Below, piece by piece: positions 2,440 through 63,725 of a stretch of 64,000 nt of DNA. Position numbers and translations under genes: made by a program. Position 1 is the stretch's first letter; the number at the start of each line of letters is the position of its first letter. Source of the stretch: Mytilus galloprovincialis (lineage: Eukaryota > Mollusca > Bivalvia > Mytilida > Mytilidae); the NCBI RefSeq assembly GCF_965363235.1, contig NC_134840.1, positions 310,001-374,000 on the forward strand. Direction: 5' to 3'. Below the pieces are notes generated by a model that was not told where the DNA came from, searched no databases, and saw nothing but the letters and a program-made list of their open reading frames with translations.

Positions 2440-3160
2440 TCAAATATCAGTGACGTCATCGAATGCAGCCGTACACTTCAAATGATATCAATACGTTTTC
2501 ATCCTCTAGATCGCCTTTCCATCTTTTAGGAACAGTTAACTTTAAGAAAATATCTCTATTCAATTCCATTCTACATCTGTTTGAAGATTGAAGTCAAAGG
2601 CCACCATTTTCTACATTAGAGAACGCCTGTACCAAGTCAAGAATATGACAGTTGTTATCCATTCGTTTGATGTGTTTGGACTTTTGATTTTGCCTTTTAA
2701 TTTTTGATTTTCCTTTTTGAATTTTCGTCGGAGTGTTTTTACTTTTTTCATACTCTGTACTTAGAAATATTTTTGGAAATTTCTGACGCATGCGCAGTCA
2801 CAAAAAAGGTCAGACATGCACAGAAGTGAAATAGGTCACCTCACTAACCCTCGCCAAAGTACACTACCTTAACTCTAACCCAAACCCTGACCTTGACCCT
2901 AACTCAAACCCTAACCCTAACCCTAACCCTAAGTCAAACCCTAACTCAAACCCTGACCCGAACCAAAACCCTAACCCTGACCCTAACCCAAACCCTAACC
3001 CTGACCCTAACCTAAACCCTGACCCTAACCCAAACACTAACCCTAATTCAAACCCCAAATGTGTTAAAATTGTTGATTTGGAGGCCTTACTTTATCTCGG
3101 AACGGGTAAGTCTAGGAGGGAAACGATTGGATTTTCGTATAAAGTGTTTCCACGAACTTC
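2440..3160 (+). repeat. Rep-E copy 1 with CCCTAA-like tract
   Basis: Dispersed element whose copies share the order: cytosine-rich words near a 'ctctagatcgcctttcc' string, a run near 'gacgcatgcgcagtcac', then a tract of degenerate CCCTAA, CCCTGA and CTCAAAC units at about 2868-3058. Compared with copy 2 at 3310-3770, this copy holds extra sequence at about 2598-2755 that belongs to Rep-F, so it appears to be a nested insertion. The tract makes an artificial Gly/Leu-rich open frame on the minus strand, which is not a gene. Confidence 0.75.
2598..2755 (+). repeat. Rep-F fragment nested in Rep-E
   Basis: Shares the words 'gaatatgacagttgtt' and 'ccattcgtttgatgtgtt' with the Rep-F copies at 25985-26170 and 31480-31725. 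It is absent from the second Rep-E copy, so it most likely inserted after Rep-E did. Confidence 0.65.
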
Positions 3161-3309: not shown

Positions 3310-3770
3310 ATTAACCCCGTTGCGAAGACCGTAAGTCTTTTTTCTGCAGTTTGATAGTTGGGATAATTTCGGGGTTAGGCTTCACTCTCGCACAAACGTT
3401 TCTTCAGAGAGGTCGGAAAGTGCGGCCGTACACTTCAGTGATACCAATAAGTTTTCATCCTCTAGATCGCCTTTCCATCTGTTAGGAACAGTTAACTTTA
3501 TGAAAATATCTCTATTCAAATCCATTCTACATCTGTTTAAAGTCAAAGGCACTTTTCATACTCTGTACTTAGAAATATTTTTGGAAATTCTGACGCATGC
3601 ATAGTCACAAAAAAGGGCAGACATGCGCAGAAGTGAAAAAGGGCACCTCACTAACCCTTGTCAAAGTACACTACCCTAACTCTAACCCTAACCCTAACCC
3701 TAACCCTAACACTAACCAAAACTGTCCACAAGAGACCAAAATGACACAGAAATTAACAAATATAGTTAAC
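3310..3770 (+). repeat. Rep-E copy 2 with short CCCTAA tract
   Basis: Same element as 2440-3160, without the Rep-F insertion. It begins in the 'ggggttaggcttcactctc' region and ends in a short (CCCTAA)n-like tract at about 3675-3715. The two copies lie head to tail less than 1 kb apart, which suggests tandem duplication or repeated insertion at a preferred site. Confidence 0.7.
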
Positions 3771-18063: not shown

Positions 18064-19276
18064 TTACCAATGACAGATAGATACATATAATACTATCTTG
18101 TTTAATTGCAGCATCTGTATGTTACTGCTCTTTTCTATTTCTACATCATCGTTATCAGTGTTATCATCCTTACCTTCCTCATCATGAATATCACAACGAT
18201 CCCTGCTGTCTTCTTCAGCATCATCCTCCTCACTGTGTTCGTGTTCAGTCTTTCCTTGGTAATGCATGTATTGACTATCTTCATCCTCATTTGATGTTGT
18301 GTCAGCCGTCTGCGTGCTGTCTTTTTGTCCGCTGTTCTCACGTTTGGTATTTGCTGTTAAAACAATTAAATTATCAAACAGATTCGATATCAACAACATA
18401 AGTAATTAACTAATTATAGCATTAGTATCTATAACTACAATGAACTTTTGAACAATAGCCTGTTGCGTTGTGGATTCTCTGTACAACTTTAGTTCTATTT
18501 TTATATCAAAGGTTTATTTCACGGAGAAATGTTAAGAAATGAATATAGTATTAAGCGATACAAAATGACAAAAACATTTACTGTTGATAAGATCTGTCAA
18601 CATTGCTCTCAATTCCATGTTGCCATTCGTAACTTCTGCTTTCATTTCTTCTGCATTAAAGCTGTTCATCAAGTCTTTCAATTCCATGTTCCCGTTTCTT
18701 ATTTCCGCCTTCAATTCATTTCTCTGAAAGTTATAAAACTGCGTTTTATTTCAGTATTTCATCGTATTTTGAATAAATGATATATATCTTGTACAAGTTG
18801 CACAGCGCATTTCATAATAAAAATAAAACACAAAATTAAGTTACATAGGCGCCTTCATAAACAGATCAATTAAATTTTTAAGAATAACCTTCAGAAGAAA
18901 GAACAAACCCAAGGGTCAAGCAATACATATTACAATTTAGTAGAAAAGTAGCCAAAGTGTGCACATTACTTAATTTCATTTCTGTTCAATCATTTTAGAT
19001 GTGATATTTCTATAAAACACGCCAAAATCCATTATTTCGTTATGTACGCAGTTCAAATTGCATACATCTCATTTCAATATATCTGCATGTAGATGGTCCA
19101 ACTGTCTTATATTTTGTCATTTCATCTTATATTATCATAATTAAATTATTGTTTTGCATTAGCGTCGCCAATATCAAGTGAGTACGTTCTACTGAATAAT
19201 TCTTATTATTTTGACAGAATAATTCCCTCCTTTGACTTACCATGTGTTTCATGTGTATTGTCATCCAATTATCCAT
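18064..19276 (-). CDS. Gene C: 5' partial paralogue of gene A
   Basis: Three coding exons correspond one to one with the first three of gene A: 19276-19241 (MDNWMTIHMKHM), 18723-18582 (RNELKAEIRN... coiled coil with the repeated word NGNMEL) and 18353 leftward (acidic, ...TTSNEDEDSQYMHYQGK...). Phases agree (0, then 1). Gene A's exon 3 ends at a GCAG|GTAAAA donor; here the aligned bases are GAGCAGTAAC, so the donor has shifted or been lost. Reading on gives a stop at 18064-18066 and an intact 155-residue frame. No counterparts of gene A exons 4-8 were found to the left. It may encode a short acidic coiled-coil protein without the C-terminal basic domain, or be a decaying partial duplicate whose exon frames are still open. 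Confidence 0.6.
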
Positions 19277-19400
19277 TTCTGCAACAACAAAAAACAAGGA
19301 ATACAAGTGTAAAATAACAATGTCATAGATACGGGTAGTTGAGCATGAAATATTTATTACATCTCATAGTTTTGATTTGCAGTCGTGCTAATTATTGACA

Positions 19401-32228: not shown

Positions 32229-35200
32229 TCAACATTTTGGACTTCTAACATTTTTCCTCTCTTTCTTGTCCTCTGACCTGTAAAAAAGATATGAAATGTT
32301 ACAAATGCATTACACTATAAAACATTGCATAACAATTTTCAATAATGTGGTCAATTGAATGAAATGTTAAGAGAGTTACAAATGAGGCAAAACTTCATTG
32401 TTAGACATACAAATCTATATTTCAGTATAAAACATACATTTTCAAGTGTTTGAATTTATCTTTTTTTTTGTTTTACGAAAAATTATTACACGTGTAATAC
32501 ACAATAAATAATCCATACCATTTTTCAATAATGTACTTAATTTTAAATTTTAAAATTAAATTTAAAAAAATTAAAAAATGTACGCAATTGTTTTCCATGA
32601 CACATACAATCCTATATTTTAGCATAAAGCATACCTTTTCAAGTTTTTGACTTTATCTTTCAGCTGCTTTATTGAAAATTCGTCCTCAATCCATATACTC
32701 AAGCGCTCACCAGTCAGTTTTAAGTTCTGCATTACATGATCGGCTGACGACCAGGTTGGATTGCAATTACTATTGTACTTTATTATGTATGTTGTTTGTT
32801 CATCTGTGAAATGTCCTGAAATTAAAGTCAAATGGGAATTATTTTATCATAAATGATAGCAACATTACGCAAATGAAATTAATATAGATAGAAATCACAA
32901 CCACGACATAAAGTACCTACACCTTATTGTTAGCCTGGTTTGTATTTTCGTATTGGTTTTTGATCATGCCATGCTGATAATAAGGTGGAAAATTTCATCT
33001 GCTTTCAAAATTAATCTGTTTGAGTACGTACTGATTTACTAACAATAATTGGCAATTATTAGATATAAATATTTGATCAATGAGTAGATGTAGTAGTGTC
33101 AACGTCTGTGTACTGTTGAAGTATAGGTGATGACGCGTGTAAATAACAAATCTCAAATAATACACAGTTTAGTGGTGTTCCTGACAGATTAGTTTACTGG
33201 TATAAATAGTTTTGGGATTGGTATCGGATTCGACCTGGAACATGTGATTTTTTTCCCAATGATAACTATGTAAACAACTTGAGGGCATTATGTGTCATTA
33301 TTTCTATTGATAATAAATAAAGATGATTTCTTGAATTGTCTTTTATAAGTCATGCCCGCTATCAAGTTGCCACTCATTCTTTTATTGGTATAGATGGCTA
33401 TTGGCATATGCTTTTGTATTATATAACAAACATACCTTTAGATTTGATCTTTGACTTCGATGAACTTGGTTTAGATGGTGTTTGGCTCGGGGTAAACAAT
33501 TTCGCTTTTACACTCATAGTGCCTGACAAAAAAATATGTTGGTTCATTTACTGATTGTTTCTTACCTTACGCAAACATCTGCTGACGATTATAATCCTTG
33601 TACGATCTTCCATTCATATTTGATCGTATTTACAAACGCATTTGTTTCCTTGTTAATTTTAGTCTTTTTAAAAAAATAATTAAGGAACAAATACATAACA
33701 TCTGGTTATATCAATACCAACAATCCTATACATTTTTTCTTTTTTTTGTGTTGAAATGGTACTGTATGGCAATTACAAGGCATTGTTGAACACTACACTT
33801 GATTTTAAATGTCTTAAAAACATATTTTGCCACAAATGCATGTGTCATCTTGTTTAATGAAATGCTTTGTAATTATTATGTCATCATTACCTTAATTTCC
33901 CATTAATAAACTTATAAATTATATAATAATAGTGATTACAAGTCGTTAACGATGAAACTACAAGATAACAAACCTTCCTTTACAAATTCTTTCTTGTCTG
34001 TTTGACAGAAGTTATGTTTGGTCAGCGGAATCACAAAACAAAAGATTTTTCGATATTTTTTGGTTTAAACATTCTAAGATAAATTAGTAGTTTAGATAAT
34101 TTGACCAATATACTCTAGTTTGTTTTACATACCAGTTGCTTTGGGTGTGTCGGACTGTTCCTTTGTTTTTAATTTCTGTAATTTGTGTGACTCTGTGAAT
34201 ACAAATTAGCAGTTAATTATCGGGAATTGTCATTTACAAATGCAATGACCAATTATCAGTTTTATCAAATTTATTGAAGTTCTAGTAAAAAGTAAAATCA
34301 CAAAATACTGAACACAAAGCAAAATTCAAACCCGAAAATCCCTAATCAAGTTGCAAAACCAAAAGCTCTAACACATCGAATGAATGGATTTAGGATGTCT
34401 GTATACTATTGTTTTTCTGTTTGTCTTTTTCATTTTTAGCCATGGCGTTGTCAGTTTGTTTTAGATTTATGAGTTTGACTGTCCCTTTGGTATCTTTCGT
34501 CCCTCTTTGAAATCAATTACTAATGTTATGCAGTACGATTTGTCCAGACGATTGCACTAAATCATGTGATTAAGCACGTTTTGGTTTTATATTCTGACCA
34601 TAGAATCGTAAATGTATTGTTTCAAAAATTATTAGCTTTTTCTATTATACGTACTTTGCAGTTCATCAAACACCTGTGTCAAGCTTTTTCCTAAAAAACA
34701 CAAATAGAAAATGTTGTTTTTCAATGTTGCTATCTACACATTACATGCAATTCAAAACACAATTCGCGCACCTAAATAGTCAATTATAATATATATTCTT
34801 ACTTTTTGGCTTGCCTTTGTCCGGAAGTATTGGTTCTAGTGGACTGTTTTCTCTTGGCGAAATGGTATGCTTTGAAGGAGGTGTCCAATTCACTGGTTCC
34901 ATAAATAACATTTCCATCTCTGTTGAAGGTAAAGTAGACTAGGTTATAAAATATAAAACTTGAAGATACATGTTAAAAGTATGCAAGGAAATACATTTGA
35001 TATACACACATTTCTCCCAAAACTGCTCTCCAAACATACTGTCTCTAAAAAAAGAGAATGTTGGTCAACTCATGAGTTCGATTCACTCGTGTATGTAACA
35101 ACGTATTTGATTTGACCAAAAGAAATCTAATAACTGCAAACATTTACTACATTTCATAATCGGTTATTATCACATTTATTCTGATATCAATTGTTAGCGT

Positions 35201-37261
35201 TTTATGGGTTGTGTTTTTCACCTATATATTAGGATGGTTTTACAAAACCCATAAACGGAGATTGTACTTAATTGTCATAGATTGAAGACATATCCCTAAC
35301 TCTAAGCACAACCCTCACCCTAATCTTTCATCAATGTTAATTGCGATCTTAAGCTTTCATGTCAGTAACTGCTAGTAGTCTGCTCAATGTCCTCTTTTAC
35401 CTATTCTGAAATCCATCTCGAACATCTTTTTTAATAGTTTTTTCTGTGCGTATTTCTATTTGCCTTGGCTAGATATTCAGAGAGGGTTGATATCTCACAG
35501 TACACGTTGACCAAGCCGCATATTTACGCCTGTTCCAAGTTAGGAGCCTCATATTTTTGCTAGTTTTGCTAGTTTTTTATTTTAATTTGTTCATCAATAT
35601 GTTTCAGAGTTAGATGTGGAGCCCTTCTTTATTCAACTAGATTCCATATCACATTTTTGTTTAATGGCCAGGTCAAGCTTATTCCAGTGCTGTATTTTCT
35701 CGTTTTGGGGGGAAGTCTAATAGATATGCTTGGGCTGTTTTCTGCTCTTTGGTTTGGTTGTTGACTCTTTGACGAATACGTTGACGAATAGGCCGTTTCC
35801 ATTCTCAATTTGCCTGGAAATAACGATATAGTTTAGCAAAGGAAGGTAGATCTATATAATATTATAAGTTTTACCTGCTCCATCTGTCTGTTTCTGTTCT
35901 ATTTCTATGTCTACATCATCGATCTCAATCGTATCATCCTTAGCTTCCTCTTCATGAATATCACTATGATCACTGCTGTCTTGTTCAGAATCATTCTCCT
36001 CACTTTGTTCGTGTTCAATGTTTCCTTGGTAATGCATGATGTATTGACTATCTTTATCCTCATCTGATGTCGTGTCAGCCCTCTGCGTGTCTTTTTGCCC
36101 GCTGCTCTCAGTTTTAATATTTGCTGTTCAAAAAGATCTGCAATATTATCAAACACGAAAACAGCTTCGATATCAACAACATAAGCAATTAACTAGCTAT
36201 AATAGTAATTTCTATAAGTGAACTTCTGAGCAATAGCCTGTTGAGTTGTGGATTCTCTATATAACTTTATATCTACATTTTTATCAAAGGTCTATTTCCT
36301 TGAGAAACGTTAAGAAATGAATGTAGTGATACAAAAAGATATTTACCGTTCATAAGATCTGTAATCATTGCTCTCAATTCCATGTTCCCTTTCGTTACTT
36401 CTGCTTTCAATTCGTCCACCTTCAAGCTGTTTAACAATGCTTTCAATTCCATGTTTTCTTTTCTTATTTCCGCCTTTAATTCATCTGTCTGAAAGTAATA
36501 AAACTATGTTTTATTCTGTTATTTCATCTGATTTCGAATTGAATGATATGAATCTGATACAAGAAGTAATGTGCATTTTATAGTTAAAATAAAACTGGAA
36601 TTAAATTGCCTATATTAAAAGATTCATTTGAGTTTTTAAGAAAACCTTCAGAAGGACGGACAGACCCCAGTGTAAAGCAATACAAATTACAATCTAGTAT
36701 AGAAAGTAAACGAAGTGTGCACATTTACTGAATAAAATTTCTGTTCATTTAAAGGTCAGATATTTATATGAAACACGCGAAAATCGATTATTTTGTAATG
36801 TTCTCAGTATATATTCGTTTTATTTCTCAATTCAGTTTATCCGCCTCTAAATGGTCCAGTTGTTTATATTGTGTCATTGTATCTTATATTTTATATTATG
36901 ATTGAATTATAATTTTGCCTTTGCGTCCGCAATATATAATGAGTACAAAATTGAAAACAACACGTTGGATTATATCTTACGTCCGACGCTCTTTTCTGGA
37001 TTTAGCTTCACCAGGAACGCTCAAAGCCAAACATTTGAAATCCGAAGATAAATAAGTAGCGAAAATTGTTGAACAGCTATATGTCAAAAATACCTAAAAT
37101 AAATAGCTAAATTCAGCTAAAGCCAACTTTGCCTGCGGGAGTTTTTACCTTAGTTTCATATTAATTTTAGACTACATAACAATTCTTAATATTTGTATTG
37201 AGTTATTTCCTTGTTTTACTCACCATTTGTGTCATCTGTATTTTCATCCAATTATCCATTT
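32229..37261 (-). CDS. Gene A: nuclear-type coiled-coil, acidic and SANT-like protein
   Basis: Eight coding exons join without a break to a 306-residue protein: 37259-37224, 36488-36347, 36123-35875, 34919-34803, 34192-34133, 33522-33436, 32815-32635 and 32277-32229 (TGA). An acceptor two bases before the ATG (gatttcag) implies an upstream untranslated exon. Boundary phases are 0, 1, 1, 1, 1, 1, 2. In order: MDNWMKIQMTQM; a coiled-coil pair (DELKAE..., ...NMELRAM); an 83-codon Asp/Glu-rich exon; Pro/Ser-rich and Lys-rich exons (FTPSQTPSKP...SKSKIKSK, a likely nuclear localisation signal); then HFTDEQTTYIIKYN... to KQLKDKVKNLKR, a 60-residue module whose last helix resembles Myb/SANT helix 3; and a basic tail. 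Gene B ends in the same module. The function is unknown; nuclear DNA or chromatin binding is inferred. Gene C copies exons 1-3. Confidence 0.75.
32635..32815 (-). CDS. Gene A SANT-like exon
   Basis: 181 nt, phase 1 in and phase 2 out, the same phases as the 175-nt exon of gene B at 59032-59206. Shared positions: F-x-x-E-Q-T near the start, a Trp in the middle (NPTW against LNW), E-E/D-E-F in front of the last helix, and Q-(L/I)-(K/R)-D-K-V-K-N-L-(K/R) at the end. Identity elsewhere is low, so the two genes are old paralogues. Confidence 0.75.
34290..34509. repeat. Rep-F scrap joined to a Rep-A 3' end in a gene A intron
   Basis: Positions 34290-34390 are a minus-strand Rep-F fragment (aaatccctaatcaagttgca, tcgaatgaatgg). 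It joins directly to a plus-strand Rep-A 3' terminus at 34398-34509 ('tgtttgtctttttcattttt' to 'tctttcgtccctcttt'). Both lie in the intron between exons 4 and 5 of gene A. Confidence 0.65.
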
Positions 37262-38899: not shown

Positions 38900-40800
38900 A
38901 TATTTGTTTAATACTTTATAACATACATAAAAGGGTATAACATGTATACATAACACTGAACACGTTTTTTCAAGCATTTTTGTGTTTCCCAAAATAATTC
39001 AAATAACAATTCAAATAATTCATCATTTAGGTATTAAAAAAAACCAATGTTAATCATACCAGTAGTGGAAAATGAAAGATCATTTTTTTCCCACCATTTA
39101 TTAAGTTCAAAGTACTCGAAAAGAAAACAAATATCATCCAGTTTATACAAATCATCATTTAAAAAAATACGGTTGTATGAAGTAAAAACACAAAAATACG
39201 GAACTCCGAGGAAAATTCAAAAAAGGAAAGTCCAAAACAATAATATTGTATAATATTCTGATAGAATTAAAAATATTAGATATTCTACAATGAAAAAACA
39301 TGTTTTGCAATTGTCAACTAAAAATTCTTCACTTTTATGTGTAGCAAAGCAATCTGATGTATAAAATGGACTGAAATATCAGGCCAGTACAAACATATTA
39401 ATTAAAACGAGAAATATTGTCACTTTTTATCATTATCGACATACATATTGCTAACCTTAGACTTATACACTTCTTGATTTTTGTAAAACTATTTACCATT
39501 GGCCACAAAAAGAACATAATTTAAATATTGTGCAGTTTTGTCAATTTTATCATTTTTTTTTGTAGAATATATGAATGAATGTCGATGAAAAATCTCAAAC
39601 AATTTAATGGTACAGTTACTCTTAGTTTACATTGAAAAAAATGAGTATGTAAAATTTTAACATTTTCTTATTTAAAATCGTTCTGAAACCGCTGTCAATT
39701 TCTTTTTAGCAGAACCTTGGTGTTTAAAATCAAAACATGAATTCAGATTTTTCCTTTCTTACCTGTTCAATAAAATGATAAAATGAAAGTAAATATTAAC
39801 TAACCTGATCGTGTATAAGACTTCGTGTCGATTGTTTAATCCTCTTCGTGCAATAGTTTTAAACGCCAGACCTTCCTTCTTCCGTTTGTGACGTTTTACA
39901 TTCTCCCTTCCCGATTTTCTGAAGGTATAAGGAAGATGTCAAAAGTCAAGAGGAAGGAGGATGATGTTTGGTAACTAGGAGAAGGACGGATGAGGAAGGA
40001 TGCAAGCATGACATAACATATGGAAAGAAGAATGAGGAAGGTGTGTGGTCGCAAGAAGAGAGAGAAAGACATTCCGTAATAAGAGAAAGGTCAGCAATTA
40101 CAATAGGAAGGAAGAATGAGGAAGGTGTGTGGTCCCGAGGGGAAGGTAAAAGACGTACCGTAATAAGGGGAAGGTCAGAGGTTACAATAGGAAGGAAGAA
40201 TGAGGAAGGTTTGTGGTCGCAAAAGGAAGGAGAAAGACGTACGGTAATAAGAGGAAGGTAAGCGATAACAATAGAAAGGAAGAATGAGGAAGGTGTGTGG
40301 CCGCATGGGAAGGAGAAACACGTACCGTAAATGGTCGCAAAGAGAAGGAGAAAGACGTACCGTAATAAGAGGAAGGTCAACGATTGATAACAATAAGAAG
40401 GAAGAATGAGGAATGTGTATGGTCGCAAAAGGAAGGAGAAAGACGTACCGTTATAAGAGGAAGGTAATCGGTTACAGTAGGAAGGAAGACTGAGGAAGGT
40501 GTATGGTCGAAAAGAGAAGGAGAAAGATGAACCGTAATTAGAAGAAGGTAAGCGGTGACAATAGGATGGACGAATGAGGAAGGTGTGTTGTCGCAAAGGG
40601 AAGGAGAAAGACGTATGGTAATAAGAGGAAGATCAGCGGTTAAAATAGGACGGAAGAATGAGGAAGGTGTGTGGTCACAAAGGGAAGGAGAAAGACGTAT
40701 CGTAATAAGATGTCATGTATGGAAGGAAGGTCTACGGTTTTATAAAGATCTTATGCTTATGTATATGTGTTGTTTAAACATTTGGTTCATTACTTGTCCT
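38900..40800. repeat. Rep-G unit 1 of a tandem duplication
   Basis: The leader at about 38900-39220 (ends like 'accagtagtggaaaatgaaa'), an AT-rich middle, the conserved block 39780-39930 ('ctaacctgatcgtgtataag', 'cttcgtgtcgattgtttaat') and the 84-bp minisatellite at 39940-40710. The same order recurs at 41000-42670, so this is a tandem duplication of about 2.1 kb. Confidence 0.7.
39940..40710 (+). repeat. 84-bp minisatellite, array 1
   Basis: About nine imperfect units containing 'gaagaatgaggaaggtgtgt', 'ggtcgcaaagggaaggagaa' and 'agacgtaccgtaataagagg'. Neighbouring units in a sister array are 84 bp apart (43371 and 43455), which is 28 codons, so frames stay open on both strands (a 216-residue minus frame at 39946-40596; plus-strand words NEEGVWSQREGERRTVIRGR). 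The strand is almost entirely purine apart from the 'acgtaccg' words. These frames are a consequence of the period and are not supported as genes. Confidence 0.8.
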
Positions 40801-40999: not shown

Positions 41000-42670
41000 T
41001 CCTTAACATGATATATCTGTTTAATACATTCTAACATACATAATAGGGTACAACATGTATAAATCACTCTGAAAACGTTTTTTAAGTATTTTTTGTGTTT
41101 CCCAAAATAATTCAAATAATAATTCAAATACATCATTTAGGTATTAAAAAAACAATGTTAATCATACCAGTAGTGGAAAATGAAAGACCAATTTTTTTAC
41201 CACCATTTATTAAGTTCATAGTATTCGAAAAGAAAACAAATATCATCCAGTTTATACAACTCATCATTTAAAACTGATAGTTGAAGTGTTTTATTCTACA
41301 AACTGAGGTATAAAATGGACAAAAATATCAGGCCAATACAAAAATATTAATGAAAAAAAGAAATTTTGTTACTTTTTAGTTTAAACATATTATGTATAGT
41401 TGATTGGGAGACACGTTTTGCAACTTATATTAATCCCTTTCCACTTTGCGTGTGCGAGTACTGCCTTGTAGAGGCATTAGCCTGTTCTTTTTCGAAATCT
41501 ACAAGGGTGTCTTTAACATGAAAGAGATATGGCTCTCTCTTAACACGGATCAGCCATTTATCATCTCCTTCCGACGGACTATCATCGTTTCTTCGAGACC
41601 ATACTCGCAAAAGGTGTCAAGGGAGAACCGAATATTCAGTTCCTGAAATGTTCATCCCAGACGGGAATCGAACCAGGACCTTTGTGTTAGTAGTCCAATG
41701 CACTAACCACTTCAGCACGGCTCTCTTACACCACTTGTCACTTGTTATCATTATCGACATAAATAATGCTAACCTTAGACTTATACACATCTTGATTTTT
41801 ATAAAACTATTCACCATTGGCCACAAAAAGAACATAATTTAAATATTTTGCAGTTTTGTCAATTTTTATCAATTATTTTTTGTAAAATATATGAATGAAT
41901 GTCGATGAAAAATCTCATACAATATCATAGTACAGTTACTTTAAGTTCACATAGTATTTTCTTATCTAAAATCGTTATTTAACCGCAATCAATTTCTTTT
42001 AAGCAGAACCTTGGTGTTTAAAATAAAAACATGAATTCAGATTTTTCCTTTCTTACCTGTTCAATAAAATGAGAAAATTATACTAGAAGTAAATATTAAC
42101 TAACCTGATCGTGTATAAGACTTCGTGTCGATTGTTTAATCCTCTTCGTGCAATAGTTTTAAACGCCAGACCTTCCTTCTTCCGTTTGTGACGTTTTACA
42201 TTCTCCCTTCCTGATTTTCTGAAGGTATAAGGAAGATGTCAAAAGTCAAGAGGAAGGAGGATGGTGTTTGGAGAAGGACGGATGAGGAAAAATGAGGGAA
42301 AATGTGGAAGGTGTGTGGTCGAAAAGTGAAGGAGAAAGACGTACCGTAATAAGAGGAAGGTCAGCGGTTACAATAGGAAGGGGGAATGAGGAAGGTGTTG
42401 TCGCAAAGGGAAGGAGAAAGACGTACCGTAATAAGAGGAAGGTCAGCAGTGACAATAGGAAGGACGAATGAGGAAGGTGCGTTGTCGCAAAGGGAAGGAG
42501 AAAGACGTACGGTAATAAGAGGAAGGTTATTGGTTACAATAGGAAGGGAGAATGAAGAAGGTGTGTGGGCGCAAAAGAAAGGAGAAAGACGTACCGTAAT
42601 AAGATGTCATGTATGGAAGGTAGGTCTACGGGTTTGTAAATATCTTATGCTTATGCATATGTGTTGTTGA
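41000..42670. repeat. Rep-G unit 2 of the tandem duplication
   Basis: Repeats 38900-40800: 'accagtagtggaaaatgaaa' at about 41167, 'ccttagacttatacac' at about 41772, the conserved block at about 42090-42235 and a shorter minisatellite of about four units at 42280-42600. It differs mainly by the SINE inserted at 41430-41728, which unit 1 lacks. Confidence 0.7.
41430..41728 (-). mobile_element. tRNA-derived SINE
   Basis: On the minus strand the head (about 41727-41648) reads as tRNA-like with A-box TGGTTAGTGCATTGGA and B-box GGTTCGATTCC, the internal promoter of RNA polymerase III. The acceptor arms do not pair, so it is not a working tRNA. The body follows with CACCTTTTGCGAGTATGG and CGAAGAAACGATGATAG, conserved words of the tRNA SINEs common in molluscs, and the tail ends near 'cgcaaagtggaaagggatt'. 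It appears nearly full length. The exact SINE family is not assigned. Confidence 0.75.
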
Positions 42671-43059: not shown

Positions 43060-43600
43060 ATTAAACATATATCGAATGTTCTCGAGGAGCATTTGCGAAA
43101 AAAGACCCCTCCTTAACATGATATATCTGTTTGAAACATTTTAACATACATAATGCGGACGGATGAGGAAGGATAAAAGCATGACACAACAAATGAAAGG
43201 AAGAATGAGGAAGGTGTGTGGTCGCAAAAGGAAGGAGAAAGACGTACCGTATAAAGATGAAGGTCAGCGATTTCAATAGGAAGGTAGAATGAGGAAGGTG
43301 TGTGGTCGCAAAGGGAAGGAGAAAGACGTACCATAATAAGATGAAGGTCAGCGGTTACAATAGGAAGGAAGAATGAGGAAGGTGTACGGTCGCAAAGGGA
43401 AGGAGAAAGACGTACCGTAATAAGATGAAGGTCCGCGGTTACAATAGAAAGGAAGAATGAGGAAGGTGTACGATCGCAAAGGGAAGGAGAAAGACGTACC
43501 GAAATAAGATGAAGGTCAGCGGTTACATTAGGAAGGTAGAATGAGGAAGGTGTGTGGTTGCAAGAGGCATAATGAAGGCAAGTTATGTTATGTATGGACG
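43060..43600 (+). repeat. Rep-G unit 3, partial, with 84-bp minisatellite
   Basis: A third partial unit: the leader words 'tccttaacatgatatatctg' (compare 41004) join directly to about five minisatellite units at 43155-43565. The leader-to-array junction skips the AT-rich middle found in units 1 and 2, which indicates a deletion. Confidence 0.7.
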
Positions 43601-50010: not shown

Positions 50011-50799
50011 CTAAGAGGCTAACCATCTATTATCTGCTAGGACATCAAGTCTACGTTCGTTATAATCCCAAACGCATTCACAACCTTTTGGAATTGAAAA
50101 TTTTGAAACGATGTATAGCTGTATATCATTTCCGTGATGTTCGGCTAAAAGTTTACAGTTCGGAAATCTATAGGAATGATTAACAAAACGTCCAATATTC
50201 TCATCAGCGTTAAACAGTCTCCCATTTTTATTTCTATTTCCATCTAGAACTGTGTGTTTGTTAGAGTTGGAAATGGCTACAGGTGGCAAACCTTGTCTTG
50301 CATATATACTATCTCTCTGGCGATGACTTTCTTCAGTAATCCATTCACCCATGTATTCTGTTATTTTTGCACCCTTTGCAATGTTGACTGAGGCAAACAC
50401 CCCTCGTCCTTTCCGTGAATCAATTGAAAGTCTGTGTATTAAGGAGGTAGCCGGTCTGTTAATATGGTCATATTCGACAGAATGAAAACTATGACGTGAG
50501 TACCGCTTTACCCGTATAAAGTAACCCCGTGGTTTCGTTGATTCTTTCCATTTATTAATTATGGCTACTTTTTTGAATGATCGTGGAAATCCAGACTTGA
50601 ACTGCTTTTTTATGTCATTAGATAACGAATTATCTGTCCTTATATTTACAAATTCTGTATAAAGTGTCTGAATTTCAGCGGACTTTATCGGACTCTCGGA
50701 GACTTGAATCAATTTGACAAAATCCTCCAGATATGGCGTAAAACTCCCTGTGTCTCTAGGATGGGCTGATGTTCCCCTCAGTAAACGATTTCTTGGCAT
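50011..50799 (-). CDS. KMT5A (SETD8)-like SET-domain protein
   Basis: A 262-residue protein in one coding exon. The start at 50799 (MPRNRLLRG) was chosen because an acceptor-like 'gtagatttacag' lies just upstream, so the longer frame to 50835 probably reads into an intron and the first exon is untranslated. The C-terminal half is a SET domain: KGRGVFA at residues 130-136 (AdoMet-binding strand), EYMGE at 148-152, RFVNHS at 204-209 with PN at 213-214 (cofactor-binding and knot motif), and WDYNERR at 244-250 (catalytic tyrosine). The spacing, the HRQRDSIYARQ helix and the short tail ending NRWLAS resemble KMT5A, the histone H4 lysine-20 monomethylase, whose tail ends HPWLKH. The N-terminal 120 residues are basic and unlike anything I recognise. 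All key SET residues are present, so activity is possible; the substrate is inferred. It is probably a lineage-specific paralogue, possibly retro-derived. Confidence 0.85.
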   Translation of the reverse strand: MPRNRLLRGTSAHPRDTGSFTPYLEDFVKLIQVSESPIKSAEIQTLYTEFVNIRTDNSLSNDIKKQFKSGFPRSFKKVAIINKWKESTKPRGYFIRVKRYSRHSFHSVEYDHINRPATSLIHRLSIDSRKGRGVFASVNIAKGAKITEYMGEWITEESHRQRDSIYARQGLPPVAISNSNKHTVLDGNRNKNGRLFNADENIGRFVNHSYRFPNCKLLAEHHGNDIQLYIVSKFSIPKGCECVWDYNERRLDVLADNRWLAS

Positions 50800-50835
50800 C
50801 TTAGTAAGAATTTCTCCTGTAAATCTACAATACAA

Positions 50836-51236
50836 CTGTTATATTGAGATTATGCCCAACATTTTATGAGTCTTACAAGTTAACTCCTAGAGGCAAAATC
50901 TCAGTTTCAATAAAAAAATGGAAAACTTCATAGGACAAATCTTGATTTTACTTAGGTCGTTTAAAAAAATGTGTCAACAATTATGAAATACTTAATGCCT
51001 ACTAGGTCAGACTTAATGGCGAGTAATCAACATGAAATTTGAATATAGCATGGCATGACACGACTCTCCCTTTTCTTGGAATCGTGATTAGCAATTATTA
51101 AAACATAAGATTACTTGAAGAATATCACCATATGATTTTATGTAAGCTTCAAACACATCTGTGTCAATAATTCACCGTTAAAACAAACTTGAACAGAAAC
51201 ATAAATATCAACTGCTGCTGAACTCATCATTAAGAA
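50836..51236. other. Upstream flank of the SET gene
   Basis: Should hold the intron and possibly the untranslated first exon of the SET gene. No clear donor or promoter element could be picked out. Confidence 0.3.
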
Positions 51237-52950: not shown

Positions 52951-53883
52951 TTGATACTTATCAAAGTCGATCTACTAAGTATTCAAAATATGAACATGAT
53001 CCTATGCTCCGATTGGCTGGAAGCAAGACTTTTAGGGGCAGTTCCTTTTGACGAGCAAACCTATGTTGCTAATCGCAAATTTGTAATTTCGCAGTTAGGA
53101 TAATTTGTCGGGGTTAGGCCTCACTCTTTTCAAAGTCAATGTTTTCCAAATTTGACCCTGTGTCCCGACATGATTGAAAAAGCAATTCGAACAAACAGAG
53201 ACAGTATTGTTGAGAAAGCAGGCATATTATGACTTAACGTCTTTATCAATTGTAGTTTCGGAGTTGGGGTTACTGTCGGGGTTATACTTCATTCTCAAGT
53301 ATCTTCAGTGCGGCTGAACACAATAATGCGAGTCCCGTCCGCAATATCGCCTTTGTTAAGTTTCTGAACAGTTAACTACAAGGAATTATCTCTATTTGAA
53401 TCCTTTGTATACCTGTTTAAACATTGTTTTCAATGACACACTTTACTTGGCATTTTTTTTTTGGGGGGGGGGGGGGGGAAACAAGAAGTGATAACTTAAC
53501 AAAACCCTAACTATAACCTTTATATATTCATACACCAGCAATATCACAACCATAATACATCCTTTCATTTATGTCTGTAACCCAAGTTTTTAGACAGACC
53601 TAGCCCATACCCTAAGCCATACCCTCTCCTAACCTACATCCAAACCTGAACCCCAGTCTTAACCCGAACCTAAAACTCTTGACAATTGGTAGTTTGAAGA
53701 CTTTTTTTTTACATTGGAGCGGGTAGGTCTAAGGGGTAACTGACTTGATGTTCATATGGCGTTTTTCACGAATTTCCGCATTATCAAAGTTTTGGAGGGG
53801 TAGAAGGTCAGTTAGAGGTTTTTTGTACTTTTCAAAGTGGATCCTCTATGAATATCTACATCATCCTATCGGCTTGAATGAGC

Positions 53884-54373
53884 ATCGAACTTTCAGGTGC
53901 AGTATTTTTTTGTCGAACAAGCCTTAGGTGAGGAAAGCACATCGAACCTTCAAGTGCAGTATTTTTTTGTCGAACAAGCCTTAGGTGAGGAAAGCTCATC
54001 GAACCTTCAGGTGTAGCAATTGTTATTGAACAAGCCTTTGGAGAGGAAAGCTCATCGAACCTTCAGGGTAATATTTTTTGTCGAACAAGCCTTAGGTGAG
54101 GAAAGCTCATCGAACCTTCAGGTGCAGTACTTTTTGTCGAACAAGCCGCAGGTGAGGAAAGCTCATCAAACCTTCAGGTGCAGTATTTTTGTCGAACAAG
54201 CCTTAGGTGAGGAAAGCTCATCAAAGTTTCATGTGCAGTAATTCTTGTCTAACAAGCCTAAGGTGAGGAAAGCTCATCAGACCTTCAGGTGCAGTTTTTT
54301 TTGTCGAACAAGCCTTAGGTGAGGAAAGCTCATCAAACCTTCAGGTGTAGTAAGTTTTGTCAAACAAGCCTTA
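53884..54373 (+). repeat. 55-57 bp minisatellite inside Rep-E
   Basis: About eight units of 'gaggaaagctcatcgaacct', 'tcaggtgcagtatttttt' and 'gtcgaacaagccttaggt'. The word GAGGAAAGC begins at 53930, 53987, 54043, 54098, 54154, 54209, 54265 and 54321. The unit resembles single-copy Rep-E sequence at 53020-53070 ('aagacttttaggggcagttc', 'gacgagcaaacctatg'), so the array grew from the element itself. Confidence 0.8.
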
Positions 54374-57790: not shown

Positions 57791-58748
57791 TTTCTGTCGG
57801 TACAGTTTAGTTGCAACTAAAAGAAAATCTAGTGAAAATGACATCATAACTCCATTTGTAAAATAACAATAAATCTTACTCCCAATATAAAGGAATTAAT
57901 AAATTGTAAAACAGGGCAAGAGACATGTTTTTTTGTATCTCCTGTACTTAAAGTCTGCAATTATTTGACATAAAGCACCGTCACAGATATTGACGGTAAC
58001 ACATTCGAAAAACGAAAAGTGTCGGTAGGCTTTCTCTGTAGTTTTGCTTTTACTAGTAACTGAAAGAATATTTTATTCCTAAAACCAGGAAAAACAAATT
58101 AAGATTGACCTATTGTGCGTCTAACATACAAAGTGTGTCAAATCAGGTTACATATCTTGGAGCAAGGGCTATTATATACTACAGACGAAGAAAACAGTCA
58201 TTCTACTATTCAAGAGAATATTATGTTTGAACCCCCTGCAGTCCCTATCAAGAAACAACATGACACTCAGAATATTCCCATATAAATTGATGCATTTCAG
58301 ACTCAGTATACAATATTCATTTTAATTAATTTTATTTTAATGAGATCAAACACATTATAATCTAATACTTGTTCTGTATAGATGAAAATGTCTCACGTTA
58401 AAGCATGCTAGTAAAGAAAAAGAAATCAATAGACTACATCTAATCACGTATAACAATGTGCATTTAAGAGGCACTTTACCTATAAACTATATAAATAAGT
58501 TGGAAAATATGTAAACCATTATTGTCACAAAGTTCAATGAATCGTGCATACAACAAGTGGGATAAATAAATGTTAAAATGCAACACTGTCAATAAGACAG
58601 GCTTTAAGATGTTTTTAATGCATCGTTGTAGAAAAACATATAAATCATTTAACAGAAATGAGGACTGTCACAATGTTAAAATCTGTATGGGACATCATGG
58701 TCGTTCTTGTAGCGTTACGTGCTTACAAGTAAATGTCTATTAATCATC
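57791..58748. other. 3' flank of gene B, nothing recognised
   Basis: Would contain the 3' UTR of gene B on the minus strand. No repeat, exon or inverted repeat could be supported. Confidence 0.4.
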
Positions 58749-61700
58749 TTATAGAGAGTGCTTTAATGGCTGCCTGAAACGAAAAAAATATTAATTGTAT
58801 AACATGTGTGGTATATCGAATGGTTTATGAAATAATCGATCAATCTAGAAATGTTTTTGTTCATGTCATAAAACAGAGTCTGTCGCGTGAAAAGTGTCAA
58901 AGTGAAATTTAAAACTCATATGCTTGAATGCAGTAGAATTTAAGTGACCATACATGTCTAACACTGAACAATTGGACCAAGCATGAAGCACATTACATTT
59001 AAAATATATTACAGTATTACAATAAACTTACTTTCTCAGGTTTTTCACCTTGTCCCTTATTTGGGACACTGTGAATTCCTCCTCCTTGAACACTCCTTGT
59101 TGCACCCCTTTGGAAATCATTGTTCGTAAGGCAGTTTCGTTTACAGTCCAATTCAGTTTGACAGCAAAGGATCTCACAAATTTAGTCTGTTCTTTGTTAA
59201 AACAAACTGTAATAAGTTAAAACAGATAAAAAGGTTAAATATTCACCGATATGTGTTTCTTTCGTTATTCTGAACTGCTGTGCTCCGATACCTACAGATG
59301 AATTCTCCGGAAATTAAAGTTTATTAACATGTAATACAATGTGTAATGCAAATGAGTGAGAATATTGTAAGATCAGGTGGAAAAAATCCTTATGTTTCTC
59401 CTCAAACGAAAATGTGTTGGTAACATAGTATTATGAAATCTTGAACTTTCGAAGATATATGTTTACAAGGAAAATTGTTAAAAGCCCTTACCTTTACTGT
59501 TTGAATGACATGATGCTGGAAAAAAAACGTACACAATCTTACAACATAATTATTGCAAAATATGGAAAAGAAAGTGTAGTATACTGCTCTTCGAAATTCA
59601 TAAATCAATAAAGAAAAAAAAACAATCCGGGTTACCAACTAAATCTGATGGAAACGCATCAAATATAAGAGAACTACGACACAACAGAAACACAAAACTG
59701 GAATGTTACACACACACGGAAACGAACAATTATATAACGATGACAATTTTCTTGACTTGATACAGGACATTTTAAGGGGGACAAATGGTGGTTTTAACCT
59801 TGTTTTGTGGCATGCCAAGCCTCCCGCTTTAATGACAATATTAAATATAACATCAAAATGACAACATTAGATGACAGGACTACAATACAAAAAATTAAAA
59901 GAAACTAAAGAACAGAGAAATACACGAATAATAGCCAACAAAGGGTACTAGGTTTAAAATGTAATACGCGTTTCGCGCGTTTCGTCCACACCAGACTAAC
60001 CAGTGACGCCCAGATGAAAAAAAGATTGAAAACTAAAACATGTTCAAAATTGAAGAGCACTGAGGACCAACAGTTCCAAAAAATTGTAACAATACGACTG
60101 AGGTTACCTGCCTCGGATAAGAATATCCTTATCATTTAGAATAGTTCAAAATTTTGCAAACAGTAAATTCTATAAAATGACTATATAATAGATATACATG
60201 GAAAAAAAAATAAAAAAAAACATACCTAGTTAATTTGGAACGCAGAACTACTGTTAGAAAGTCTAACCTCGTTAATCTACACCTTCGTTCCTGTGGTAAT
60301 TATTCCTTAGTACACATTAATTAGAACGGATTTAATTGATGTGTGTATCAGTTTACATAGCCTCTTTTTCCAGTAAATTCGGTAATATGTATACGCGTAT
60401 AACTGTTGAAAAGTCTAAATTTAATCTTATGTTTAAAACAAACCAATATAAAATTTAACTTAAAATAAATATTCATTTGTTAACCTAAATTCGTCTGTGA
60501 TATTAAAACAAATAATTTCAAATGATTATGATTGAGTCGTAGGGTCGATATTTGCTAGATTATTTTAATGATAACTAAATCAGAGCTTTACATACAGTCT
60601 GGAAAAAACTTACCAGAAGGCTGTACGTCAACTTTACCTGAAATATGCCGGAATTGGGATGTATGATATAAAAAGAGAAAACCAAAAAGTCTAAACACAA
60701 GGAATAATTGACATGTATACATATGCTGTTAACCAATTTATTTTCGCGGATACTTTTTTTTTTGTTAAGCTCATTCTAATAGAATTCGCGGCGTTTTAAT
60801 TTCGCTATTTTCAAATTTACTTTAAGTAATTAGACAAAGAGATCCAAGATATTCACTTTTGAGACAATTTATATTTGTTTTATTGTTCTTCTCTCCTACC
60901 TCGCCAAATACAAATTGTTCGCAGAAATAAGTTGGTTTACAGCAACATCCCGAAAGTTTACTTAAAGTCTTCATTGAAAAAGTCATATATTCTAGTATTT
61001 TACACGTACACGTATAACTTTGCAATATACGCCTATAGTTCTATTTTTACCTGTTAGCACACAACAATGTCAGTTATAAAATATTGTAAAAATTAATATT
61101 TTATAACTGGTGAATATTTTCCCAAATCTTAAATGTACTCTTTGCATGTTTAATACTGTCATGTTCATGTACTTTGCAGTTTTATATGTGCTTATAACGT
61201 CATATAGATAAACCTACTACTTGTTCCTTCCATTTCTTTCAAGGCTGTTTTAACAACATTTGACCCTATATTATAAAGAAACAAATGCCATGTCAGAAAA
61301 AAATATCAATCAAAACTATGTAAAGTTGAACCAATAACATTAAATAAGTTACAGGTGGCTCATGTGAAAATTGCATGTTGTATTTTAAAAAGCATGAAAT
61401 GTTATTTCAAATGATTGTTTTTTCATTCTGAATTCAACAAATTAAGAAACACTTGAAAAGCGCACGTGTAAAGGCATCGGTAGATCATTGTATTTATGTG
61501 CTATTATCTACTTTGTTTACAATCAAGCAATCATAATAAACATAAATGTTATCTAATTGGAATGGTTGTTACAGGCAGACGATATGCATAGAGGTCAGTG
61601 GAAATGTTAACTTCATTAAATTTATCTTCGTATGTCAAAATGCATCTTTACTAATTATAATTTTGATTTGATAGAGTAGTTTCGTCGATGTTTGCTGTCT

Positions 61701-63725
61701 TTAACATTGCACTTCAATTTAAACTTTTAATATGATCTGAAAAATACCTACCAGATGGCTGTTGTATAACTTGACCTGAAATATACAACAACGCGGATAT
61801 CAGATGTAATGGCGAAAACGAAGAAAAATATGAACATAAGGAAACTTGTTCAATAATTTAGTAACACACGTGTAACCGTAGACATTTCGACAGTTAAATT
61901 TTTTTCTCTCAAATGTTAACACACAATAATGTTCTAATTGTATTGTTAGCATACAGCCATGCATTCACATACAAAACTACCATACTCATTCACATTTAAC
62001 AGTGAGGTTATATATATTGCAGCTGTATATGTGTTCATTACAACATATGTATAAACAACTTACTGCTTTTTCTTTTCGGTGCTTTTGAGGATGCATTTAG
62101 GACATCAAACACTAGAATATAAAAATACAATGACAATGTCAGAGAAAAAGTAGAAAACAAAATTATATAAAGTTTTAACAAATTCGAGGCATAATGTATA
62201 AGTGACTCATATGAAAACTGATGTATTTAATACAGCATATATTTTTTTTTTTAATTTGGTAGAAAGGAACTGTCGATGTTTGCTCTTTAGTTAACAACAC
62301 ACTTCAATTTGACCTTTTAATATGATCTGGAAAACAAATTACCTATTGGCTGTGGTTTAGTTTACCTGAAATTTACAACATTTCGGATGTCATGGATTAC
62401 AAATCCAAACACAAGAACAGTTGTTTAGTACTTTAGTAACACGCATATGACTGTGGAATTTTCTCCTTTAAATCTGTATTTTACTGTAAGCACACAACAA
62501 TGAAAAATGCATAAAAAATCAATAGTTCATAATTAAATGTATCTATTGATCTTTATTTACATAATTACCAACAAAGTTGAGGGAATAGTACTGTTAATGT
62601 TTGCTTTTTTCTTTGCATTAGTATGTAGTGATATAAATACAGCTTTAAATAGTATTAAAGAAAACTTACCAGACGGCTGTATTTGGTAGTTACCTGAAAA
62701 AAACAATACTTTGGATGTCAAAATCAATAGATCAAACCAGAAATTCTGAACACAATGACATTATTTACATTGATATATATTACATCTGTAAGTTTGTGTG
62801 TATCATTTTGTTTAGCCACTTCATTCAGAAAGTCATATTTTTCAGTACTTGGGTAAACCGCCTCCGCGTAGAGCTGTTGAATATTATCCTATCAATCTTA
62901 TAGAACTGTTTGCACAAACCAATGTCAGATGGCACTTAAATAAAAAAATATACTTCCATATCAAACTTCAATTGATCGACTGATGTTTATAAAGATTATT
63001 ACAAATGATTCTAATAGAATAGTAATGTCAACGTTTGCTTATTAAAATCACGCTTTCATTTGAATTTAAAGACCATTGGAAAAGAAATAGCTCACCAGTT
63101 GGCTGTCGTTCACCTTGGCCTAAAATAAACAAAACTTGCATATCAGATAAAATAAATGAAACTAAACATTCCAAATACAAGAAAATTATATAGATTGATA
63201 AATCGTACATTCAAAAGAGGGACGAAAGATACCAAAGGGACAGTCAAACTCATAAATTTAAAACAAACTGACAACGCCATGGCTAAAAATGAAAAAGACC
63301 AACAGAAAACCAATAGTACACATGACACAACATAGAAAACTAAAGAATAAACAACACGAACCCCACCAAAAACTAGGGGTGATCTCAGGTGCTCCGGAAG
63401 GGTAAGCAGATCCTGCTCCACATGCGGCACCCGTAAAAAGTACATGTGGATCAGTTAACATACTCTACTTACAATGACTTAAACTTGATAATTTAGTCGT
63501 ATGACATGTAAATAATAGTTGAATATTCGCTCATAAATTCCAATTACACTGTTTTCGTACAGCCATGTAAATCGACATTCACATTCAATTTGGCCTTGTT
63601 CATTCATATTTGCTACCAATGGAACATATGTGGAATGCAGTTACATGTGTGTTTATGTCTTGATAGGATAAACTTACTACTTTTTCTTTTATTGACTTTA
63701 GAGGCTGCAATTAGGATATCTGACA
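58749..63725 (-). CDS. Gene B: SANT-like protein with tandem microexon array (3' part)
   Basis: Visible exons on the minus strand, 5' to 3': 63725-63678 (48 nt), 63119-63096 (24), 62693-62670 (24), 62365-62343 (23, decayed), 62111-62064 (48), 61775-61752 (24), 61265-61218 (48), 60637-60614 (24), 59515-59492 (24), 59206-59032 (175) and 58773-58749, ending TAA. All microexons have AG acceptors and GT donors and are phase 1 on both sides, so any can be skipped without changing frame except the 23-nt one, which would bring in TAG. Peptides: 48-nt type VSDILIAASKVNKRKS, VFDVLNASSKAPKRKS and GSNVVKTALKEMEGTS; 24-nt type SQGERQPT, GNYQIQPS, SQVIQQPS, SKVDVQPS and ASCHSNSK. The 175-nt exon reads FNKEQTKFVRSF... 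to QIRDKVKNLRK, the module shared with gene A. The 5' exons lie beyond 64 kb. A nuclear role is inferred from the basic KRK motifs. Confidence 0.75.
59032..59206 (-). CDS. Gene B SANT-like exon
   Basis: 175 nt, phase 1 in and phase 2 out. Reads VCFNKEQTKFVRSFAVKLNW, then a segment ending FKEEEFTVSQIRDKVKNLRK. The final helix matches the Q-x-(R/K)-D-K-x-K-N-L-(R/K) pattern of Myb/SANT-like third helices. Counterpart of 32635-32815 in gene A. Confidence 0.75.
59492..59515 (-). CDS. Gene B microexon, 24 nt (ASCHSNSK)
   Basis: Acceptor ttttttccag, donor GTAAGG, phase 1/1. Its length and phase fit the 24-nt class but the QPS motif is lost, so it is the most diverged member. It directly precedes the SANT-like exon. 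Confidence 0.65.
59640..60172. repeat. Repeat block in a gene B intron, including Rep-B
   Basis: Positions 59640-59840 resemble a worn minus-strand Rep-F relative ('cttgatacaggacatttt', 'aaatggtggttttaacctt'). Positions 59944-60172 are Rep-B ('cgcgcgtttcgtccacac', 'accagtgacgcccaga', 'agcactgaggaccaac'). Both lie in the intron between the microexons at 60614 and 59492. Confidence 0.6.
60614..60637 (-). CDS. Gene B microexon, 24 nt (SKVDVQPS)
   Basis: Acceptor atatttcag, donor GTAAGT, phase 1/1. Typical member of the QPS class. Confidence 0.75.
61218..61265 (-). CDS. Gene B microexon, 48 nt (GSNVVKTALKEMEGTS)
   Basis: Acceptor ataatatag, donor GTAGGT, phase 1/1. Same length as the exons at 62064 and 63678, and its intron flank (aatcaaaacta, then 'acaggtggctcatgtgaaaa') resembles that at 63740-63840, so it arose by cassette duplication. 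It has lost the KRKS ending. Confidence 0.7.
61752..61775 (-). CDS. Gene B microexon, 24 nt (SQVIQQPS)
   Basis: Acceptor gtatatttcag, donor GTAGGT, phase 1/1. Its downstream intron ('cttttaatatgatctg' on the plus strand) matches that beside 62343, which supports recent duplication. Confidence 0.75.
62064..62111 (-). CDS. Gene B microexon, 48 nt (VFDVLNASSKAPKRKS)
   Basis: Acceptor tattctag, donor GTAAGT, phase 1/1. The basic KRKS end is shared with 63678-63725. Confidence 0.75.
62343..62365 (-). pseudogene. Decayed gene B microexon, 23 nt, ends in a stop
   Basis: Acceptor gtaaatttcag, donor GTAATT. In the phase of its neighbours it reads GKLNHSQ then TAG, and it is one base short of the 24-nt class (GCCAATAG where the others have GCCATCTG or similar). 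Inclusion would truncate the protein, so it is either always skipped or acts as a poison exon. Confidence 0.65.
62670..62693 (-). CDS. Gene B microexon, 24 nt (GNYQIQPS)
   Basis: Acceptor gtttttttcag, donor GTAAGT, phase 1/1. Typical member. Confidence 0.75.
63096..63119 (-). CDS. Gene B microexon, 24 nt (SQGERQPT)
   Basis: Acceptor gtttattttag, donor GTGAGC, phase 1/1. The first residue is Ser when it follows the 48-nt exon at 63678; the codon is split across the junction. Confidence 0.75.
63211..63439 (-). repeat. Rep-A copy in a gene B intron, with target duplication
   Basis: Minus-strand Rep-A from 'tcaaaagagggacgaaagat' to 'catgcggcacccg', flanked by GTACAT at 63205-63210 and 63440-63445. 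The clean ends and good sequence make it one of the youngest copies here. Long open frames on its minus strand recur in other copies but show no host protein likeness. Confidence 0.75.
63678..63725 (-). CDS. Gene B microexon, 48 nt (VSDILIAASKVNKRKS)
   Basis: Acceptor tatatcacag, donor GTAAGT, phase 1/1. First visible exon of gene B; at least one further upstream exon must lie past the window edge. The leading residue depends on that exon. Confidence 0.7.

Follow-up and report, generated by a model that had tools for sequence, protein, structure and literature searches.

A run of nine very short exons, nearly all of them exactly 24 or 48 nt long, can be proposed on the minus strand of the window (the whole stretch of DNA analysed here, 64,000 nucleotides). 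The run raises two questions: whether a rule of length is at work in it, and what such exons would do for the protein of the gene in which they lie, which we refer to as gene A.

A run of predicted symmetric microexons

The nine microexons placed on the minus strand by the original prediction were all recovered: five intact exons of 24 nt, three of 48 nt and one of 23 nt, each with an AG upstream and a GT downstream (9/9). In order of transcription these are a 48-nt exon at 63678–63725 (peptide SDILIAASKVNKRKS), 24-nt exons at 63096–63119 (QGERQPT) and 62670–62693 (NYQIQPS), the 23-nt exon at 62343–62365, a 48-nt exon at 62064–62111 (FDVLNASSKAPKRKS), a 24-nt exon at 61752–61775 (QVIQQPS), a 48-nt exon at 61218–61265 (SNVVKTALKEMEGTS), and 24-nt exons at 60614–60637 (KVDVQPS) and 59492–59515 (SCHSNSK). 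As sequence, the array is real. Eight of the nine have lengths of 24 or 48 nt, are entered and left in phase 1 and have an open frame, and for these the original claim of frame neutrality holds. It does not extend to the 23-nt exon, a decayed copy with a 1-nt deletion that breaks the frame: its phase-1 reading is KLNHSQ and then TAG, so that its inclusion would terminate the protein, and the idea that any combination of exons keeps the frame has to be given up. The 16-residue peptide, said usually to end in KRKS, does so in two of the three 48-nt exons and lacks that motif in the exon at 61218. By simple residue counts the 87-residue array peptide has 64% disorder-promoting residues and a net charge of +7.

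Downstream of the array, also on the minus strand, a 175-nt exon at 59032–59206 would encode the C-terminal three-helix module of gene A, and the terminal exon, from its start to the stop codon, lies at 58749–58773 (KQPLKHSL and stop) with an ATTAAA downstream at 58619. A further 45-nt candidate at 59247–59291 (phase 1/1), absent from the original prediction, is doubtful because its sites are weak and it would leave an intron of 40 nt after it. All of these exons are predictions from sequence, and the window does not reach the 5' part of gene A.

We scanned the window blindly for candidate exons of 9–60 nt with a summed splice score of at least 8, using generic matrices drawn from textbook knowledge. 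In the array the scan returned five candidates, every one exactly 24 nt long; outside it, nine candidates on the minus strand and ten on the whole plus strand included none of 24 nt (0/19) and one of 48 nt (1/19). Among 300 first-order Markov sequences of the length of the array, the mean number of candidates of 24 or 48 nt was 0.0033 and the maximum 1. The 24-nt exons of the array are more than chance. The exon at 59492 has splice sites of 6.6 and 7.4 bits, and its sum ranks second of the nine, behind that of the exon at 62670. The scan also recovered a 38-nt exon at 37224–37261 and its copy at 19241–19278, both of which lie in paralogues of gene A. When the threshold was lowered to a sum of at least 4, the array gave 13 candidates, the 48-nt exons at 62064 and 61218 among them, while the 48-nt exon at 63678 and the 23-nt exon at 62343 were missed and non-cassette candidates were picked as well (for example a 24-mer at 62303, plus others at 60638 and 61010); outside the array, 100 candidates appeared, of which three measured 24 nt and one 48 nt. 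The splice score does not single out the 48-nt exons, since two of the three are found only at the lower threshold and that at 63678 not even then, and these exons rest on cassette homology, open frame and the AG and GT at their ends. Recursive splicing, with a donor (AG/GTAA) regenerated at microexon starts, was rejected, the best junction scoring 2.9 bits and only after a 24-mer. Elsewhere in the window, at 53883–54373, four units of a tandem array of 56-nt units yield exon-like candidates of 29–30 nt on the plus strand.

The C-terminal module and the paralogues of gene A

Gene A appears to be one member of a small tandem gene family. Its 58-residue module matches the stretch at 32634–32813 with 29% identity (tblastn 4e-8), and this second copy belongs to a gene, gene B, that the original prediction did not contain. 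Both module exons are entered in phase 1, and in the alignment both end after the second base of the same codon. Identical nucleotides at the first, second and third codon positions number 36, 30 and 19 of 58; in this alignment third positions are the least identical, which is the signature of coding sequence.

Gene B (32.6–37.3 kb, minus strand) has predicted exons of 38, 142, 249, 117, 36, 60, 24, 87 and 181 nt. Its acidic exon of 249 nt (35875–36123) is followed by five linker exons, of 117 nt (34803–34919), 36 nt (34655–34690), 60 nt (34133–34192), 24 nt (33974–33997) and 87 nt (33436–33522), the three shortest being microexons, and then by the 181-nt module exon (32635–32815), which has the entry phase and donor position of its counterpart in gene A. 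All six exons from the acidic exon to that of 87 nt are phase 1/1, including all five of the linker. The linker itself (108 residues) has, again by simple residue counts, 62% disorder-promoting residues and a net charge of +10. Since the symmetric exons of gene B have other lengths, phase symmetry is the family trait and the lengths are not. Genes A and B, the two with a C-terminal module, would both place phase-1 symmetric linker exons before it; on the predicted exons, phase-1 symmetry is the ground plan of the family and gene A expanded one part of it. Downstream of the acidic exon, on the same strand, gene B may have an alternative terminal exon (35629–35813), which reads KLRMETAYSS...WNLVE and whose stop overlaps an AATAAA.

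A third member, gene C (17.9–19.3 kb, minus strand), is a partial copy in which the first three exons of gene B are matched at 84–89% and the introns and flanks at 74–80%. Differences from gene B by codon position number 5, 4 and 14 in one exon, an excess at third positions; in the other two they are 7, 10, 10 and 0, 2, 2, and the excess is not clear. The alignment reveals decay: close to the end of the acidic exon a deletion shifts the frame, and a donor is lost. A profile search found no C-terminal module near gene C. Nor did the two-module profile find a third module anywhere in the 64-kb window, the next match having an E value of 0.08.

AlphaFold, run on the alignment of the two modules, returned three helices with a pLDDT of 94.6, and the C-terminal module is thus a confidently predicted three-helix domain. 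The original prediction had called it SANT-like. An in-frame helical module is indeed predicted, but no significant match supports the SANT label: neither module reaches the Pfam cut-off (the only match, to the kinase family PF18762, has an E value of 0.093 and was obtained with a longer gene A query), the best matches in a PDB sequence search with the module have E values of 0.67–1.6, and none of the 15 Foldseek matches to the module model has an E value of 0.001 or less. The weak Foldseek matches include homeodomains (E 2.2, 3.9 and 4.7, with TM scores to the query of 0.55–0.66) and the Mos1 transposase (E 3.1). A helix-turn-helix role for the module would be a reasonable proposal. Whether the query was one sequence (2 pattern stretches) or the two-sequence alignment (80), tblastn confirmed no relative in viral contigs, and none was confirmed among 111 stretches in bacterial and archaeal genomes, a result that is uninformative on animals. 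A repeat pattern used to test the mussel origin of the DNA occurred in none of the papers and viral contigs searched. A search of Rfam gave no match at gathering score.

Several other features of the window were recorded. An uninterrupted frame of 275 residues at 50011–50838 on the minus strand has a SET domain (Pfam PF00856, 7e-12) and is possibly a retrocopy or a mobile-element gene. Purine-rich minisatellites with an 84-nt unit occupy 40022–40710, 42295–42604 and 43197–43563, the first and last of them inside long minus-strand open frames, and degenerate, telomere-like repeats of the ACCCTA type lie internal to the window at 2866–3046 and 3673–3717.

Duplication and constraint of the cassettes

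Profiles built from the two kinds of cassette found five 24-nt and three 48-nt cassettes above threshold and no others in the 64-kb window, the members matching by construction. The three 48-nt cassettes align in blastn with 68–72% identity over 188–289 nt (E 2e-14 to 2e-27), and parts of the 24-nt cassettes with 66–74% identity over 80–231 nt. These alignments confirm the duplication of exon plus intron for four intact 24-mers, the 23-mer and the three 48-mers. The original prediction had placed the exon at 59492 in the same tandem array. Neither profile recovers that exon in the window, and by this comparison it is an independent 24-nt exon and not a cassette copy. Further decayed cassettes appear in the 64 kb only as sub-threshold profile matches (E 2.4–6.8).

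On this evidence the eight cassettes, seven of them intact and one decayed, go back to two founder exons. The first, of 24 nt and encoding an octapeptide with QPS or QPT, would have given five copies, and the second, of 48 nt and encoding the 16-residue peptide, three; both would have been duplicated along with their introns, one copy decaying later. Two copied founders and one independent 24-mer are enough to account for the uniform lengths, and the rule of exactly 24 or 48 nt that had been proposed dissolves, the more so as gene B has exons of 249, 117, 36, 60, 24 and 87 nt. The least probable of the readings we considered derives the cassettes from an interspersed repeat whose ends happen to look like splice sites. 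Such a repeat does sit at 63207–63434, in the intron that separates the first 48-mer from the first 24-mer, and recurs at about 15.3, 22.2, 26.4, 31.0, 34.4, 37.6 and 56.3 kb; above threshold, however, the cassette profiles match only their own five and three members in the 64 kb.

What has been protected since the duplications? Between cassette copies the exons are 52–75% identical and the flanks 54–79%, so that the exon copies are conserved no better than their introns. Differences at the three codon positions number 20, 13 and 17 in the 24-mers and 16, 16 and 17 in the 48-mers, and there is no synonymous excess in either (24-mers, 8 against 6.5 expected, p = 0.32; 48-mers, 4 against 6.7, p = 0.92). 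The lengths behave differently: across its three copies the 48-nt exon is free of gaps, a state reached by 0 of 115 flank windows of 48 columns. The four intact 24-mers lack indels too, and here 13 of 163 flank windows are gap-free. Because the flank windows overlap, so that the counts are not independent, and because the four 24-mers were selected as intact, these figures lend only moderate support to a protection of length. In the four intact copies the splice core of the 24-mers is invariant at 11 of 16 positions against 54 of 193 in the flanks (p = 0.0014), and with the decayed copy added at 8 of 16 against 41 of 193 (p = 0.015); the core of the 48-mers has no significant surplus of invariance over their flanks (10/16 against 93/193, p = 0.20). 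The four intact 24-mers contain no stops, and a pairwise simulation was stop-free in 4% of runs, a figure to be read with the dependence between pairs and the selection for intactness in mind; for the 48-mers it was 43%, which is uninformative. Taken together, residues as variable as introns and intact exons without indels make only exon length and frame look protected, and this in the intact copies. The array is in this respect a case of apparently protected exon length and frame with drifting residues, and the broken 23-nt copy is one path of cassette death.

A harsher reading of the same data is that the array is a relic, its cassettes, especially those of 48 nt, decaying and unspliced, with only the exon at 59492 and the C-terminal exons in use. 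The lack of any amino-acid-level constraint between copies would fit, as would the one cassette of eight already broken and the presence in the same cluster of gene C, itself partial and decayed. We nevertheless judge it unlikely, for all eight cassettes retain AG and GT, seven of eight retain exact length and open frame, indels are rarer in the intact exons than in the flanks, and the four intact 24-mers are free of stops, with the qualifications given above for the simulation.

Possible use of the array and comparison with known systems

We consider it rather probable that gene A is a member of a tandem family, built of duplicated frame-neutral cassettes, whose linker varies by cassette turnover and optional skipping. 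Because all introns of the stretch are phase 1, intact copies could be gained or lost without change of frame, each adding or removing 8 or 16 residues in a linker that is basic and probably disordered, and such frame-free units would let the linker vary both in evolution, by gain and loss of cassettes, and in the animal, by optional skipping. The likeliest reading of the peptide is a disordered basic linker of interchangeable units of 8 and 16 residues. We infer from the predictions that the exons are spliced in and that skipping occurs; the linker may then govern the spacing or the nuclear targeting of a DNA-binding module.

The alternative closest to this scheme shares its anatomy and denies only the skipping, for which reason the probabilities we assign do not sum to one. 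Every intact microexon would always be included, and the number of cassettes would matter only over evolution; the probability of this we put somewhat short of even. The five 24-nt exons are flanked by strong sites (acceptors of 3.7–7.5 bits, donors of 5.0–7.4 bits), the introns separating the nine proposed exons measure 231–1098 nt, and the most conserved intronic element has no consistent complementary partner, all of which suits constitutive inclusion. Against it, the donors of the 48-nt exons are weak (0.0–2.4 bits), the profile expected of skippable exons, and a full-length protein requires that the decayed 23-nt copy be skipped. The weak 48-mer donors are what favours regulated combinatorial splicing of the array, which is possible on these scores; constitutive inclusion is an almost equally good fit.

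A stricter form of regulation, in the manner of Dscam, would have one 24-mer and one 48-mer chosen per transcript by competing intronic pairing. The exons are homologous and in tandem, and five exons of the 24-nt type share an intronic element, starting AGCAAA, 56–65 nt downstream. This element, the one type checked, has no consistent complementary partner: among its five copies, only the one after the decayed exon at 62343 outdoes the best of 20 shuffled elements (−26.3 against −22.8), and the other four do not. Moreover, with exons that are frame-neutral nothing compels exclusivity, and we regard mutually exclusive choice as very unlikely.

Returning to the favoured scheme of turnover and optional skipping, a fuller version of it appears improbable to us. 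Here a family outside the flatworms would use microexon cassettes to vary the length and charge of a linker ahead of a three-helix module acting in the nucleus; individuals would differ in the number of their cassettes, and combinatorial splicing would decide which are included. Were it true, a micro-exon gene would encode a presumed DNA-binding protein and not a secreted one.

The original prediction knew of no earlier description of such an arrangement and thereby overlooked the micro-exon genes (MEGs) of flatworms, which have several micro-exons that are symmetric and divisible by three and are subject to exon skipping (PMC7653826, PMC4015677). In open-licence PMC papers nothing comparable was found for micro-exons in mussels (a paper on LSD1/RCOR was not relevant), and no title describing such an array stood among the matches listed for exon duplication or tandem microexons in Mytilus; for exon duplication in bivalves, an oyster alternative-oxidase case was among the matches listed.

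By the operational rule of PMC7653826, a MEG has at least seven exons, of which at least half are shorter than 70 nt and divisible by three, with a run of at least four such exons. Visible gene A has eight intact microexons and two exons downstream, all predicted. In this visible part eight of ten exons are of the required size without the 23-mer and the 45-mer, and nine of twelve with both, and the run is eight if the 23-mer is skipped, or three and then five if it is counted. Gene B as predicted falls outside the rule, with three of nine exons qualifying and a run of three. On its predicted exons, then, visible gene A resembles flatworm MEGs by this rule, and we claim no membership of their superfamily. 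The likeness to schistosome and tapeworm MEGs lies in consecutive short symmetric exons divisible by three and in tandem gene duplication (PMC7653826, PMC4015677, PMC10526429). The differences are that MEGs are genes of flatworms and that most have a signal peptide (PMC4015677), whereas gene A has two founder exons, KRKS patches and a predicted three-helix C-terminal module; the first predicted exon of gene B (MDNWMKIQMTQM) does not, by eye, look like a signal peptide.

A parallel to the repetition itself is the schistosome 10.3 antigen (MEG-4; Davis et al. 1988), in which, as in the array, a repeat is reported to be encoded by tandem exons (PMC4015677, PMC10526429). The repeats of the antigen are reported to be 81 bases long, whereas gene A interleaves exons of two kinds, 24 and 48 nt in length. 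Exons 4–8 of fast skeletal troponin T (TNNT3) are small, and their splicing is said, in the title of a cited study, to follow 'combinatorial patterns'. They offer a likeness in that an alternatively spliced run of exons varies one region of the protein (PMC2447309). The troponin is unrelated to the protein of gene A, and its splicing is known where that of gene A is predicted. If the predicted splicing of the array is right and the animal stands outside the flatworms, micro-exon genes would be no peculiarity of flatworms.
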